Assembly: GCA_016841045.1 (NCBI GenBank)
Contig: JAENZX010000011.1
Coordinates: 1 to 64,000, forward strand
Direction of reading: 5' to 3'
DNA: 64,000 bases
Origin: Thermincola carboxydiphila
Lineage (GTDB): Bacteria > Bacillota > Thermincolia > Thermincolales > UBA2595
The position numbers and the translations under genes were made by a program. Shown piece by piece: positions 1 through 56,230 of this stretch (positions are counted from its first letter, which is position 1; each line of letters starts with the position of its first letter). The notes beneath the pieces are model-generated. The model was not told the DNA's origin. It searched no databases and saw only the letters and a program-made list of their open reading frames with translations.

Positions 1-643
1 TTTCTTCACTGATAATCTTCTGAAAGTCACTGACAATCATTGGATATGGGTGAGGCTCACCTACAGAACCAAGAACATAAAACGTTGTCCTGACATTTGT
101 TACCCAGTCGCTTATTGCCTCATTCATAGCATCCTTTAGTGTACGGCTGCCTGAAGCGACTGATTACACCTTTGCCCCAAGAATCTTCATACGAAAAACA
201 TTGAGTTCCTGTCTTTTAATATCTTCTTCTCCCATGAATACGACACATTCGAGGCCAAATAAGGCTGCCGCTGTGGCTGTGGCCACGCCATGCTGACCAG
301 CTCCCGTTTCAGCAATAACACGCTTCTTCCCCATGCGTTTCGCAAGCAAAACCTGCCCAATGGTGTTATTGATTTTGTGAGCTCCAGTGTGATTGAGGTC
401 CTCCCTCTTAAGGAAAACCCTGGCTCCAGCACAATGCTTCGTTAATCCATCGGCATAGTACAGGTTAGACGGGCGTCCAACATATTGTTTAAGATAATAT
501 TCTAATTCCTTCTGGAATTCAGGGTCCTTTGTGGCTGTTTCATAAGCATTTTCTAATTCATAAAGGGCAGGCATCAGAGTCTCTGGCATATACTTCCCGC
601 CGAACTCACCAAAATGTCCTCTCTTATCAGGAAGTTCATACAT
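1..643 (-). pseudogene. trpB: Tryptophan synthase beta chain, interrupted by an in-frame stop
   Basis: TrpB joins indole and serine to make tryptophan using PLP. The N-terminal part is well conserved, including HTGAHKINN with the PLP lysine (about residue 90) and [16 protein letters not shown]. After ILGAKV a TAA codon (164-166) stops translation, yet the same frame continues as recognisable TrpB ([15 protein letters not shown], then PHPYPMIV) to the window edge, so this is a nonsense change and not a frameshift. Past the stop, the usual GPHPYP reads EPHPYP and the usual VRDFQ reads VSDFQ. These departures are from memory of the family and hint at real decay. The ATG at 643 lies one base after the trpF stop with AGGGGG upstream. 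The 3' end lies outside the window. A sequencing error or a second functional trpB elsewhere remains possible. Confidence 0.8.
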
Positions 644-644
644 C

Positions 645-1253
645 TCAATTCCCCCTCGCATTGCAAATAAAAGCTTCTATCTTAGTAACATCTTTGACAC
701 CATCTGTTTCTACCCCACCACTGACATCAACAGCATAAGGTCTTGCAATCCGGCATGCCTCAGCAACGTTTTGCGGATTTAATCCCCCGGCAAGTACAAT
801 TTTTCCTGCCTCAGAGACAGTGGCGGCAAGATTCCAGTCAAAAGTCCTGCCCGTGCCACCTGCAACTCCAGGGATATATGTATCCAGAAGAAACATTTCT
901 GCATAATCACGGTAAAGTTTCATTTCTTTTAGATAATCGTTATTTTTTATTCTAAATGCCTTAATTACCGGAACATCAATCATTTTACAGTAAGCTGGAG
1001 ATTCACTGCCGTGAAGCTGAACCATGTCAAGCCCACAAGCACTCACAATTTCATTCACGGTTTCTGGCTTTTCATCTACAAACACACCAACCTTTTGCAC
1101 TCCTGCCGGAAGTTGGCTGGTAATGAACGAAACTTGTTTTGGCGTGACTTTTCTCGGGCTTTCTGCAAATACAAAACCCAGGAAATCAGCACCCAGCTCG
1201 GCGGCAATCACCGCGTGATTAACTTCCTTGAGTCCACAAATCTTAATCTTCAT
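645..1253 (-). CDS. trpF: Phosphoribosylanthranilate isomerase
   Basis: Third step of tryptophan synthesis from chorismate: isomerises PRA to CdRP in the cytoplasm. The 202-residue single-domain TIM barrel is of normal length. The N-terminal KIKICGL holds the catalytic cysteine, [19 protein letters not shown] carries the catalytic aspartate and a phosphate loop, and [10 protein letters not shown] and VDVSGGVE form the C-terminal phosphate site. The ATG at 1253 follows AGGAG. It lies 44 bases after trpC and 1 base before trpB, so translational coupling to trpB is likely. Confidence 0.96.
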
Positions 1254-1297: not shown

Positions 1298-2071
1298 CTA
1301 ACCTATAAGCTCAGAAACCTTTCGAGCTATGTCGTTTTCCCTCATCAGGGCTTCACCAACCAGCATGGCATGAATTCCATGGTGCCTCAGTCTTGTAACA
1401 TCATCCCTGGTATTGATACCACTTTCACTGACTATAACAATCCTGGGGTCAGTAATTTTTTCTTTCAGCTGAAAAGTTGTTTCCAAACTCGTTTTAAAGG
1501 TCTGCAAATCTCTGTTGTTGATACCTATTATTTCTGCCCCAAGACTTAAAGCTCTACCAAGTTCTTCCTCTGTATGTACTTCTACAAGACACTCAAGTCC
1601 CAGGTTCTCTGCTATATTAAAGAGTTCTTTAAATTCTGTGTCACTGAGAATAGCCATAATGAGTAGTACCGCATCTGCTCCCCAAACGTTTGCCTCATAT
1701 AATTGGTAGGAATCGATAATAAAATCTTTCCTTAGCACCGGCAGATGAGTAATACTACTGACTATCCTAAGGTATTCAGGCTCTCCCATGAAAAACTCCT
1801 GGTCAGTCAGAATCGAGATGGCTTTAGCCCCTGCCTCGGAGTAAATCCTCGCTATTTCTGCCGGATTGAAGTCCGCCCTAATCAATCCTTTCGACGGCGA
1901 TGCCTTCTTTATTTCGGCAATAAGTGAGACACCTTCCGTGTCTCTTAGAACTTTTGCAAAAGACCTTGCTTCGCGTTCTCTGACAATATCCTTTAATTTG
2001 GAAAGTGGTACCCTGGCCTTGTTTTCTTCAACTTCTTTCTTTTTATGTGCAACTATACGGTCTAGAATCAA
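1298..2071 (-). CDS. trpC: Indole-3-glycerol phosphate synthase
   Basis: Closes the indole ring, converting CdRP to indole-3-glycerol phosphate. The 257-residue TIM barrel is the usual size and is not fused to TrpF. Active-site motifs are all present: IAEIKKASPSKG, VLRKDFIID, CLVEVHTEEEL, IIGINNRDL and VSESGI. The start is TTG at 2071 behind GGAGGG. It lies in the trp operon 31 bases downstream of trpD. Confidence 0.97.
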   Translation of the reverse strand: MILDRIVAHKKKEVEENKARVPLSKLKDIVREREARSFAKVLRDTEGVSLIAEIKKASPSKGLIRADFNPAEIARIYSEAGAKAISILTDQEFFMGEPEYLRIVSSITHLPVLRKDFIIDSYQLYEANVWGADAVLLIMAILSDTEFKELFNIAENLGLECLVEVHTEEELGRALSLGAEIIGINNRDLQTFKTSLETTFQLKEKITDPRIVIVSESGINTRDDVTRLRHHGIHAMLVGEALMRENDIARKVSELIG

Positions 2072-2102: not shown

Positions 2103-3140
2103 TTATACTACATAGGCTTCAGAATTTTTATAGCCCTGGCTGAATTCTTTTAATTGATTTAACTTTTCTCTGGCTGCTCCTGATTCAATAGCATCTGCTG
2201 CTAGTTCTATTCCTTCTTTAATATCCTCTGCAGCTCCGGCAGCTACAAGCGCTACCCCGGCGTTTAGTAAGACAATATCTCTACGCGCTCCCTTTACACC
2301 ATCTAGTACTTGCCTGGTAATCACTGCATTTTCTTCAGCAGTGCCCCCTATAAGTTCGTGAAAATCAGGGGGATTAAAACCATATTTCTTTGGCTCAAGC
2401 ATATAAGTAAGTACTCTTCCGTCCCTAACCTCACTCACCTTTGTCTCTCCCAAAGTAGATATTTCATCAAGACCACCTGAACCGTGAACTACAAACGCTG
2501 CCCTGGTTCCTAACTTGGCAAGCACACCCGCGATAATTTCAGTAAGTGCAGAGTCGTATACTCCCAGCACCTGACACTGTGCATCTGCCGGATTTGTGAG
2601 GGGACCCAGCAGATTAAAAACTGTTCTAATACCAATTTCCCTTCTGGGCCCGATGGCATATTTCATTGCTCCATGCAGAGCAGGGGCAAATAAAAATCCT
2701 ATACCCAGTTCATCAATGCAATCCCCGACCTGCTCAGGGGTTAAGTTTATATTAATATCCAGCGCTTCAAGTACATCAGCACTTCCACTGCGGCTGGATA
2801 CGCTGCGGTTACCATGTTTTCCCACCGGTACCCCGGCTGCAGCAACCACAAACGCCGCAGTTGTCGAAATGTTAAAGGTATTGGATCCGTCTCCGCCTGT
2901 ACCGCAGGTATCAATCAGAAGCCCACGGGAGGTTTTAACTTTAGTAGCCTTCTGTCTCATAACTCTTGCAAATCCGGTTATTTCATCAATGGTCTCCCCT
3001 TTTATTCTAAGTGCGGTAATCAGTGCACCAATTTGGGCATCTGTAGCTTTCCCGCTCATGATTTCATCCATTAGATCAACAGATTCTTCTTCGGTCAAAT
3101 GGATACCGCTAACGACTTTATCAAGTGCGCCTTTAATCAT
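2103..3140 (-). CDS. trpD: Anthranilate phosphoribosyltransferase
   Basis: Transfers phosphoribose from PRPP to anthranilate, the second step of the pathway. The 345-residue protein has the family signatures [17 protein letters not shown] (PRPP/Mg binding), [20 protein letters not shown] and [11 protein letters not shown]. There is no fused glutamine amidotransferase domain, consistent with a separate trpG directly upstream. The ATG at 3140 has GGAGGAG about 10 bases upstream. Confidence 0.97.
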
Positions 3141-3184
3141 TCTCTTCTCTCCTCCTCTAAACTAAACCATTCTAGTCTCAAATC

Positions 3185-3757
3185 TCAGCTTATTTTTAGT
3201 TCCAAGAAATTTTTTAACAGTTGTTTGCCGTTTTCCGTCAATATTGACTCGGGATGGAACTGCACCCCTTCAACAGCTAACTCTTTGTGCCTTAGGCCCA
3301 TAATTTCTTCATTGTCAGACCATGCGCTTATCTCAAAGCAGTTAGGAAGAGATTCCTTTTCAACTATTAGCGAATGATACCTTGTGGCTGTAAAAGGAGA
3401 CGGCAGTCCTTGGAAAATTGTCTTTCCATCGTGATAAATCTTGGAGGTCTTTCCGTGCATTAGATTTTCTGCCCTTATAACCTTTCCTCCGTATACCTGC
3501 CCTATTGACTGATGTCCCAGGCATACACCGAGGACAGGTATTTTTCCTCCAACCTCTTTTATGAGATCCATCGATATACCTGCTTCATTGGGAGTACAGG
3601 GCCCTGGTGAAACAACGATGTGTGAGGGAGATAACTCTAAAACTTTCTCTACTGTAATTTTGTCATTACGATAAACCTTTATTTCTTCTCCCAACTCTCC
3701 AAGATACTGGACAAGGTTAAAAGTAAAAGAATCGTAATTATCAATCATTAATATCAA
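3185..3757 (-). CDS. trpG: Anthranilate synthase component II (glutamine amidotransferase)
   Basis: Supplies ammonia from glutamine to TrpE. The 190-residue class I amidotransferase has the nucleophile elbow [13 protein letters not shown], the oxyanion motif [12 protein letters not shown] and the HPE triad motif VQFHPES. The likely start is TTG at 3757, directly after the trpE TGA, because AAAGGAGG lies 8 bases before it; an ATG at 3748 is the alternative. Such proteins often also serve folate synthesis as PabA; a separate pabA cannot be judged from this window. Confidence 0.95.
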
Positions 3758-5239
3758 TCAACCAACCTCCTTTAACATAAGTGTCTCCAACAGTGCTTTA
3801 GCTTTATTAATGGTTTCATCATATTCCTTTTCGGGCTGGGAATCGGCAACTATTCCCGCCCCTGCCTGGATGTAAGTTCTTCCCTTATGAACCACAATGG
3901 TTCGTATGGTAATACATGTATCCATATTTCCTGTAAAGCCAAAATAACCTATTACGCCTGCATAAACCCCTCGTCTTGTAGGCTCAAGTTCTTCGATAAT
4001 TTCCATTGCCCTAATCTTAGGCGCACCCGATACTGTTCCTGCTGGAAAACAGGATTTTAATGCATCGAAACTTGACATTTCAGGCAAAATTTTTCCGCTC
4101 ACTGTCGAAACCAGATGCATCACATGAGAATATCGTTCTATTTGCATAAAACAATTTAATTTTATACTACCATAGTCGCAAACCCTTCCCAAGTCATTTC
4201 TGCCTAAATCAACAAGCATAAGGTGTTCTGCCGTTTCCTTCTCATCTGCCAAAAGCTCCTTCTCAAAGAGTTCATCTTCTGTGTTGTCTTTACCCCTTGG
4301 TCGTGTACCTGCTATAGGACATGTTTGAATTTCGCCATCTTCAACACGTATCAGCATTTCTGGAGAAGATCCTATGATTACTGTTTCATCAAAATTAAGA
4401 TAATATAAATAAGGGGCTGGATTAACCGTTCGAAGGTTTCTGTAAACATCAAACGGTTCACCTTTAAGAGGCATATTGAGACGCTGAGATAAGACAACCT
4501 GGAAAACATCACCGGATTTTATATATTCTTTAGCCTTTTCGACTTTGACCATAAATTCTTCTTTTGTCATGTTTGAATTAAAATCTTGCAAACTTCTGTT
4601 CTTATCATAACGTTGTGCTGAAATCATTACAGGATTACTATGTATCATTTGCTTTATTGCATTAATACTGGAAACTGCTTTTTCATAAGTTTTTTCAGGA
4701 CTGCCGCCGGGTTCGGTATTAACAACTATTTTGACTTTATGTTTGACGTGGTCAAATATTAAAACCATTCGCGTTAAGATAAAGTGACAGTCAGGTATGC
4801 CGAGGTCGTCAACAGTTTCTTCTGGAATTTCTTCAATATATCTGATTAGGTCATAGCCGAAATAACCGACAGCACCTCCATAAAACCTGGGCAGACCTGC
4901 AATTGTAGGTGCCTGATACTCCTCCATAATCTTCCTGAGGTTATCAAGTGGACTTCCAGTTAATTCAGTTTTTATTGTAGTTGTACCCTCATCCTTTTCT
5001 ATCACATTATTACCATTTCGGCAAAAGAAGTTCAGGAAAGGTTCAAAGCCTATAAAGGAGTAGCGAGCGAGGTTTTCCCCTCCCTCTACACTTTCCAGGA
5101 GATAAGAATACCGTCCCTTGCAGACCTTTTTAAAAATAGAGATGGGTGTGTCCATATCCACAAATAATTCCGTATAAACCGGAATTAAATTATAAGTCTT
5201 GCTCATTTGTAAATATTCGGCGCTGTCCGGATAAAACAT
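3758..5239 (-). CDS. trpE: Anthranilate synthase component I
   Basis: Converts chorismate to anthranilate, the committed step. The 493 residues contain an N-terminal regulatory domain with [11 protein letters not shown] (the LLES element is the tryptophan feedback site in known TrpE proteins) and the C-terminal chorismate-binding domain with [54 protein letters not shown] and [17 protein letters not shown]. It is the first gene of the operon; ATG at 5239 follows GGTGGGG. Expression should be controlled by the leader attenuator between 5283 and 5530. Confidence 0.97.
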
Positions 5240-5282: not shown

Positions 5283-5321
5283 TAAAAAACACAAAACCAG
5301 TGCTCAAACGAGCACTGGTTT
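5283..5321 (-). terminator. trp leader intrinsic terminator with overlapping antiterminator
   Basis: On the minus strand a perfect 12-bp stem (arms 5310-5321 and 5294-5305, 4-base loop) is followed by TGTGTTTTTT. Its 5' arm can instead pair with an upstream CTGGTTT (5329-5335) to form a 7-bp antiterminator (partner 5315-5321, loop 5322-5328). The two hairpins share bases and exclude each other, the standard attenuator arrangement. It sits about 45 bases upstream of the trpE start. Confidence 0.88.
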
Positions 5322-5342
5322 ACATCTCAAACCAGACATAAA

Positions 5343-5400
5343 CTCAACTCAGCTCATCTCAGCTCATCTAATCTCTGCTCTTTAAAACTCAACTCTACTC
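5343..5400 (-). promoter_or_regulatory. Eleven GAG/TAG triplets, candidate TRAP-like or HutP-like RNA-binding site
   Basis: Read on the minus strand, NAG triplets begin every 5 bases at 5398, 5393, 5388, 5378, 5373, 5368, 5363, 5358, 5353, 5348 and 5343 (plus-strand coordinate of each triplet's low end). Ten are GAG and one is TAG; spacers are 2 bases except one of 7, exactly one missed register. Known TRAP targets have about eleven (G/U)AG triplets with 2-3-base spacers. The tract ends 7 bases before the antiterminator arm, so a bound protein would block antitermination. Confidence 0.85.
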
Positions 5401-5475
5401 TTAAAAAATTGACTAATCTTCTCTTAGCAATAAACTATTCTCTAGCTTACAACACTAATAACTCTTTTAAATTAA

Positions 5476-5493
5476 CTCATCTCACCTAACCTA
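5476..5493 (-). promoter_or_regulatory. Second, promoter-proximal NAG triplet cluster
   Basis: Four triplets on the minus strand (TAG, TAG, GAG, GAG) lie at exact 5-base intervals immediately after the predicted transcription start. Scattered TAG and GAG triplets continue between this cluster and the main eleven-triplet tract. It may be an extra or initial contact site for the same RNA-binding protein. Confidence 0.55.
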
Positions 5494-5501
5494 TGTGTAA
5501 A

Positions 5502-5530
5502 ATATAACACAGTCCAAGCTCCGCTGTCAA
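5502..5530 (-). promoter_or_regulatory. trp operon promoter
   Basis: On the minus strand a perfect -35 TTGACA (5525-5530), 17-base spacer and -10 TTATAT (5502-5507) lie just after the aroH stop codon. Transcription should start near 5495, so the RNA would begin right before the first NAG triplets. trpE-B therefore has its own promoter in addition to any readthrough from hutP-aroH. Confidence 0.82.
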
Positions 5531-5536
5531 TCTGCA

Positions 5537-5914
5537 CTACAACTTATTTGCCAAATCCGTTCTAAGGGAAGCAGCTTCATCCAAGTACTGGTGTCTAATT
5601 TCAGCCTGGCTTTTGTTGGTATTCACGTGCATAAGCACCCTAATAAGTCGTTCCATACTTCCAGGAACATCTATTTCACGTGCACAGAGTAACGGAACCA
5701 TGTTCCAACCAAGTTCTCTTGCCGCAGTAGCTGGGAAATCCGCATTAAGGTCAGGAGTTGTTGTTAAAAAAACACTCGCTATGTCCTCAGTATTTACATC
5801 GTTCACTTTTACCATTGTTTCCAGGAGCTTTTTGGTGGCATCAAAAATTTCGCGCTGTGTATTCCCCTTAGCAGTTATTGCTCCTCTTATTCCACGAACC
5901 GCTTTCTCTCCCAT
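5537..5914 (-). CDS. aroH: Chorismate mutase, AroH type
   Basis: Converts chorismate to prephenate, the entry to phenylalanine and tyrosine, competing with TrpE. The 125-residue protein matches the monofunctional AroH fold. Residues matching the Bacillus subtilis active site are visible: RGIRGA (Arg), LLCAREIDVPG (Cys and Glu), LIRVLMHV (Arg) and IRHQYL (Tyr). The ATG at 5914 follows GGGAGGA. It lies 17 bases after the HutP-family gene, probably co-transcribed, and directly before the trp promoter. Confidence 0.93.
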   Translation of the reverse strand: MGEKAVRGIRGAITAKGNTQREIFDATKKLLETMVKVNDVNTEDIASVFLTTTPDLNADFPATAARELGWNMVPLLCAREIDVPGSMERLIRVLMHVNTNKSQAEIRHQYLDEAASLRTDLANKL

Positions 5915-5931
5915 AAAACCATCCTCCCTTT

Positions 5932-6354
5932 CTACTTTGAAAGCGCTCTGTGTCCAATACCAATAGCAACTTCATCCAAATGAAGAAGCCCTATTCCGAA
6001 AAATAAAGCTACAGTAATGTGATCTTCATATCGAGCAATGCCGATTTTACCTCCCACGTTAAGGCCTACAGCTTTTGGCATTATCTGGGACAACGCTTCC
6101 CTCGTGGCACCGGCAACTGCACCCTCGTCGGCATGAGTGTCTTTAATAACTCCTTCTCTTTTGCCCGCAACCACAGCCCGTTCAACGATTTTTTTTACTG
6201 ATGTTATGAATTCACCACCGTAATCGACGGCAGCTGTCTTAATACCCAATCCGGCAAACGCTTTCTGAAGGCTCTTTTCTTCATCCCGACTCTCGGAGAG
6301 TGCCATTTTAATTGCTACTGATGCTGTTCTACGACTTCCAATATGTTCAGTCAA
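5932..6354 (-). CDS. HutP-family RNA-binding antiterminator-like protein
   Basis: B. subtilis HutP binds UAG-rich RNA in a histidine- and Mg-dependent way and prevents termination in the hut operon. This 140-residue protein shares the family core (AGATREALSQ, GLNVGGKIGIARY, ITVALFFGIGLLHLDEVAIGIGHRAL). Aligned by eye, the B. subtilis His73/His77 metal pair falls on glycines while the C-terminal His near residue 135 is kept, so ligand use has probably changed; a nearby THADEG histidine might substitute. The start is TTG at 6354 behind GAGGAGG. No hut genes are nearby. Its neighbours are aroH and the trp operon, whose leader is full of NAG triplets, so it is a candidate regulator of aromatic amino acid synthesis. 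The family call is fairly sure; the role is inference. Confidence 0.78.
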   Translation of the reverse strand: MTEHIGSRRTASVAIKMALSESRDEEKSLQKAFAGLGIKTAAVDYGGEFITSVKKIVERAVVAGKREGVIKDTHADEGAVAGATREALSQIMPKAVGLNVGGKIGIARYEDHITVALFFGIGLLHLDEVAIGIGHRALSK

Positions 6355-8614: not shown

Positions 8615-8690
<76 letters not shown>

Positions 8691-56035: not shown

Positions 56036-56057
56036 ATAAGTATTAAATCAAATATTA

Positions 56058-56230
56058 TTGGTATCAGGTGCCCCTAACTGGGGAGAATAGGGAATTGGGT
56101 TTAAACCCCAAGCGGTCCCGCCACTGTATGTGGGGAATAACCTTCACAAAGCCACTCGTTTAACGGGGAAGGCGAAGTTTAGTGATGATCCACGAGCCAG
56201 GAGACCTGCCTGTACCTGCTGAGTCGTATT
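56058..56230 (+). ncRNA. Cobalamin riboswitch
   Basis: The B12 box GCCAGGAGACCTGCC is at 56196-56210, and upstream core elements are in order: GGTGCCC near 56069, GGGAATTGGGTTTAAACCCC-type stem, GTCCCGCCACTGT, and GCCACT at about 56151. A terminator follows, so B12 probably stops transcription of cobT. Confidence 0.95.

Follow-up and report, generated by a model that had tools for sequence, protein, structure and literature searches.

Control of the trp operon by TRAP is a textbook system, which has been studied nearly wholly in Bacillus. HutP uses few triplets, with a spacing other than that of TRAP. In the open-access literature, we found no description of TRAP sites outside Bacillus-type genomes; an earlier description in the subscription literature is possible, and Gutierrez-Preciado et al. 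2007 is reportedly a likely relevant source on such sites. At trpG, trpP and ycbK of B. subtilis, TRAP impedes ribosome binding (PMC11255114). Here, a window of 64,000 nucleotides from Thermincola carboxydiphila (contig JAENZX010000011.1, positions 1 to 64,000) was analysed, in which a trp operon and its upstream neighbours are located as follows:

5932..6354, minus strand: HutP-family gene, upstream of aroH (Pfam)
5537..5914, minus strand: aroH, chorismate mutase type I, upstream of the trp promoter (Pfam)
3758..5239, minus strand: trpE, first gene of trpEGDCFB (Pfam)
3185..3757, minus strand: trpG, glutamine amidotransferase, in the trp operon (Pfam)
2103..3140, minus strand: trpD (position and sequence; same place in relatives)
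1298..2071, minus strand: trpC (synteny)
645..1253, minus strand: trpF (synteny)
164..661, minus strand: trpB, short frame of 165 aa (about 395 aa at this place in relatives)

The frame at 2103..3140 is presumably trpD, judged by its sequence and position, and the short trpB frame may be due to the nearby contig end or to a frame break. Elsewhere in the window, a cobalamin riboswitch lies at 56049-56227 on the plus strand (Rfam RF00174, 122 bits) and a tRNA at 8615-8687. The region before trpE contains the following elements:

5501..5530, minus strand: sigma-70-type promoter of the trp operon (TTGACA 5530-5525, 18-nt spacer, TATATT 5506-5501)
5476..5493, minus strand: four promoter-proximal (G/U)AG triplets in 5-nt register (starts 5493, 5488, 5483, 5478)
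5343..5400, minus strand: predicted TRAP-binding tract of eleven (G/U)AG triplets (3 + 8, one register skipped, 5-nt spacing)
5310..5345, minus strand: proposed antiterminator (core CUGGUUU + AAACCAG; outer stem GAGU + GCUC takes in the last triplet)
5284..5321, minus strand: intrinsic terminator (12-bp stem, GUUU loop, U-rich tail)

The consensus promoter, which an earlier note on this DNA had placed just after aroH, is found there with a predicted RNA start at about 5494 on the minus strand, and promoters of the same form occur at the equivalent position in G001-G004, G006, G007 and G009. The eleven regularly spaced GAG/TAG triplets that the note had counted are also recovered. GAG starts at 5400, 5395 and 5390, one register is skipped, and GAG at 5380 and 5375, UAG at 5370 and GAG at 5365, 5360, 5355, 5350 and 5345 follow, giving ten GAG and one UAG with the last base at 5343. 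The chain score of this tract is 19.1, compared with a best score of 11.8 among 5000 dinucleotide shuffles of the leader and 7.5 among shuffled whole windows (n = 20). It is by far the top-scoring site in the window, and a site at trpD ranks second.

The four promoter-proximal triplets of the note are present at 5493-5478, but they are only mildly unusual, since an equal chain appears in 58 of 5000 shuffles (about 1%). The 95-nt promoter-proximal segment holds 11 (G/U)AG triplets (shuffle mean 9.6; no enrichment), and the role of the four is uncertain. The segment 5493-5415 was considered as a second eleven-triplet TRAP site and dropped, because it is no richer in (G/U)AG than shuffles are.

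Downstream of the main tract, the arms AAACCAGTGCTC (5321-5310) and GAGCACTGGTTT (5305-5294) enclose the loop GTTT and form the terminator stem (-19.1 kcal/mol), followed by the tail TGTGTTTTTT at 5293-5284, while trpE begins further on at 5239. CUGGUUU at 5335-5329 would pair with AAACCAG at 5321-5315, an arm which by sequence is common to terminator and antiterminator; this agrees with the 7-bp antiterminator overlapping a 12-bp terminator with a T tract (5321-5284) in the note. In Rfam, the leader matched no known RNA family, and no T-box was found within the window.

Among the related genomes, mtrB is present in 112 of 199. TRAP tracts in the trpE leader were found in 28 of 32 mtrB-positive genomes and in none of 26 mtrB-negative genomes (p 1.3e-12; the p-values in this work are indicative, as related genomes are not independent), and 4 of the 32 have no recognisable trpE leader. 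The sample consisted of our own locus and the 11 loci nearest by trpE, 20 more mtrB-positive loci ranked by trpE similarity only, and 28 mtrB-negative loci. It was drawn without regard to sites, so the genomes were not picked by their tracts; the scorer and thresholds were set with the near relatives and the first 13 mtrB-negative loci already viewed, and before the last 20 mtrB-positive and last 15 mtrB-negative loci. A blind pattern (seven in-register triplets, one mismatch) applied to the nearest 61 genomes matched 29 of 37 with mtrB and 1 of 24 without it (p 5e-9). Generally, the tracts of relatives have 8-13 triplets with 5-nt spacing upstream of trpE, showing the conserved register that the note had named as a check, and they often finish with GAGCUGAGAUGAG, followed by an antiterminator-terminator pair CUGG...CCAG...CUC, GAG...CUGG. 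In G002, a second run, of ten (G/U)AG triplets whose spacing is mixed, is located upstream of the main tract (L113 11142-11090).

Slippage can produce purine-rich repeats, and the tract might be functionless GAG-rich low-complexity sequence, with the terminator controlled otherwise, such as by a T-box or a leader peptide. We regard this as extremely improbable: the lack of a T-box in the window leaves other control without positive support, none of the 5000 shuffles reached the score of the tract, its register is constant while the spacers vary, and such sites co-occur with mtrB and recur at other tryptophan genes. Taken alone, the leader can be assigned with high confidence, judging from its sequence, to a TRAP-controlled transcription attenuator.

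The genome contains one TRAP gene, mtrB (C64:97991-98188, E 8.5e-41), for which the note had suggested a search. Its product passes the NCBIfam MtrB equivalog (144.8 bits; cut-off 117) and shares 69% identity with TRAP of B. subtilis, the comparison sequence being consistent with the PDB matches. Around the RNA and tryptophan sites, T25, T30, F32, H34, E36, K37, D39, Q47, T49, H51, S53, K56 and R58 are unchanged, and these 13 positions are likewise invariant in 29 other TRAP proteins, which are the best-scoring matches and so a sample biased towards conservation. E36, K37, K56 and R58 are RNA contacts of TRAP (PMC4027176). The TRAP-type attenuation that the note had proposed is thus supported by mtrB itself, by the contact residues and by the co-occurrence. 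No match to rtpA (anti-TRAP) was found in this genome with a query confirmed as anti-TRAP, which is weak evidence as the search was run without a positive control genome. In G047, G123 and G028 (L124, L125, L151), mtrB is located directly upstream of the trp leader, where TRAP may be encoded beside its own target.

The HutP-like protein, which the note had named as another possible binder, would place the leader under the control of histidine rather than tryptophan. HutP recognises NAG triplets in B. subtilis hut mRNA, its gene is the second one upstream of trpE (5932-6354), and the order hutP-aroH-leader-trpE persists within the family and in G021, G039, G054 and G131. Immediately before the trp promoter, hutP-aroH recurs across the family and in several distant genomes (window 5537-6354, L112-L122, L128, L129, L131). 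However, among the 61 genomes, tracts occur in 4 of 5 that have mtrB and no HutP, and in none of 10 that have HutP and no mtrB; moreover, eleven triplets at strict 5-nt spacing suit the TRAP ring. By this presence and absence of tracts HutP was set aside as the binder, it is not required for the leader, and we consider control through it very improbable. TRAP is the favoured binder.

TRAP attenuation requires the tract and the antiterminator to overlap. The note had described the tract as clear of the antiterminator, which is right for the 7-bp core, but the last triplet is probably in an outer stem, as far as can be judged from sequence. In our own leader and in close relatives, GAGU of the last triplet stands opposite (A/G)CUC in the 5' arm of the terminator, and this outer pairing is present in the predicted folds of G009, G011, G043 and G050. 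The lowest-energy fold of our own leader shows longer-range pairing rather than the simple 7-bp antiterminator plus outer stem, and for this reason its exact antiterminator structure is uncertain in the model. In favour of the attenuator, holding the triplets of our own leader single-stranded is predicted to destabilise the structure before the terminator by 13.3 kcal/mol. The outer stem is not open to a covariation test, since its GAG is fixed by TRAP, and the MAFFT alignment of the attenuators is poor in loop regions, so no covariation claim is made.

On this model, with tryptophan in ample supply, the TRAP ring would carry it and wrap the leader RNA along its eleven (G/U)AG triplets as the RNA emerges. 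The wrapping would pull the last triplet out of the antiterminator, TRAP thus presumably acting by dismantling the outer stem, and the terminator would form and end transcription ahead of trpE. Under tryptophan shortage, TRAP would come off, the antiterminator would keep the 5' arm of the terminator and the operon would be transcribed. On transcripts that read through, TRAP on the Shine-Dalgarno of trpD would directly block trpD translation, at the site below:

3142..3186, minus strand: second TRAP site (predicted), eight triplets including one in the trpG stop region; spans the trpD Shine-Dalgarno AGGAGG and ends one base before ATG

From the trpG stop codon to the trpD ATG, the RNA reads GAGauuuGAGacUAGaauggUuUAGuuUAGagGAGgaGAGaaGAGa-AUG (3186-3138). 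Compared with the leader, this site has fewer triplets and no terminator, and it was matched by 0 of 5000 shuffles. The trpD start region scores in 26 of 32 mtrB-positive and 0 of 18 mtrB-negative loci (p 7e-9). Other start regions in the same mtrB-positive operons hardly score (trpG 1 of 26, trpC 1 of 30, trpF 0 of 29, trpB 1 of 30), although the trpD score comes partly from the Shine-Dalgarno itself.

These triplets could be just an extended Shine-Dalgarno, with TRAP acting on the leader alone, as AGGAGG lies inside the site and at trpD many relatives fall short of eleven, with just four to seven triplets. This seems improbable to us, since our own site reaches far upstream of the Shine-Dalgarno, the starts of trpG, trpC, trpF and trpB in those operons and of trpD in genomes without mtrB do not score, and TRAP sites in translation initiation regions have precedent in the B. 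subtilis trpG, trpP and ycbK (PMC11255114). As TRAP impedes ribosome binding at those three genes, a translational gate would be the natural reading at trpD. From these comparisons we infer TRAP binding, tryptophan dependence, termination and the translational block. The whole explanation, attenuator plus trpD block, appears quite likely, with the trpD part graded lower than the attenuator alone. We know of no described case of a TRAP site at trpD.

Predicted TRAP sites were also found outside the trp operon. Contig C2 of our own genome (about 138.2-143.6 kb; L261 5227-5290, 5397-10648) carries an eleven-triplet tract and a terminator before dctP-dctQ-dctM (a tripartite transporter), together with genes for an octopine/nopaline-type dehydrogenase and for a protein resembling 3-hydroxybutyryl-CoA dehydrogenase. 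Among dctP orthologues (at least 60% identity), tract and terminator are present in 7 of 8 genomes (our own, G004, G007, G008, G009, G039 and G127; not G011), the one in G008 being identified by eye with a lower score, while none of 11 dctP paralogues (below 40% identity) has both. The next operon on C2, iorA-iorB-CoA ligase-TrpB2 (L261 10751-16110), has a weaker tract at its start, also in G004, G007, G008 and G009, and a branched-chain-type aminotransferase downstream. IorA is an NCBIfam equivalog of indolepyruvate ferredoxin oxidoreductase (842 bits; cut-off 651). This cluster, at 138.2-149 kb of C2, has two predicted TRAP leaders, of which the first is strong and the other weaker. On contig C40, a purine-rich match resembles low-complexity sequence and was left out of the counts.

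In other genomes, sites precede TrpP-family, TrpX-like, TrpB2, DAHP synthase and phenylacetate-CoA-ligase-like genes. Triplet tracts stand before TrpP-family genes in three genomes and before a gene for a TrpX-like substrate-binding protein (L132, L134, L136, L135), and tracts overlap or adjoin TrpB2 start regions in four genomes (L133 6250-6287, L146 5964-5996, L139 5722-5763, L148 1730-1762).

The solved structures nearest to our DctP are 4n6d (44% identity) and 4nap (40%); 4nap, 4pgn and 4pgp were reportedly solved with tryptophan or indole acids. The next structure group is described as binders of aromatic acids (coumarate, cinnamate, ferulate), and for the tripartite transporter class, a review counts indole acids among the ligands discovered recently (PMC5812351). 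On a coherent reading of the dctPQM and ior genes, indole acids would be taken up and activated, then reductively carboxylated to indolepyruvate, which would be transaminated to tryptophan; the sites at these genes suggest that TRAP governs this salvage as well. We lean moderately towards a TRAP regulon larger than that of Bacillus, in which TRAP would attenuate trpEGDCFB, block trpD translation and repress the salvage genes that lie next to TrpB2 (DctPQM, CoA ligase, indolepyruvate ferredoxin oxidoreductase and transaminase).

The kind of leader is itself already known, whereas the trpD site and the salvage regulon look like a new variation on it. Predicted TRAP RNA sites now extend across a broad set of non-Bacillus genomes and offer dozens of natural leader variants for tests of register, number and overlap. 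If the trpD site is true, one operon would be controlled at two points, by an attenuator and by a translational gate within it. For genes whose annotation says no more than a C4-dicarboxylate-type transporter and neighbours, the leaders of the transporter and the oxidoreductase suggest a testable function (tryptophan or indole acid uptake, and salvage).

Among the described systems, the leader of B. subtilis trpEDCFBA (PMC4027176, PMC3913778) likewise combines eleven (G/U)AG triplets with an antiterminator that bound TRAP would block and a terminator before trpE, and the contact residues of the two TRAP proteins are identical. However, the B. subtilis antiterminator (+60 to +111) covers several triplets (PMC4027176), while here it seemingly covers the last triplet only; its terminator is weak (-12.6 kcal/mol; PMC3913778), while that of our leader is strong; and trpG is inside the trp operon here, unlike in B. 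subtilis. The site at trpD is similar to those of B. subtilis trpG, trpP and ycbK (PMC11255114) in having (G/U)AG triplets across a ribosome-binding region and no terminator, but differs in lying inside an operon already under a TRAP attenuator. The B. subtilis hut operon, controlled by HutP antitermination, shares the NAG triplets before a terminator, and a HutP-family gene adjoins our leader, whereas the number and spacing of triplets here fit TRAP and the tracts do not track HutP.
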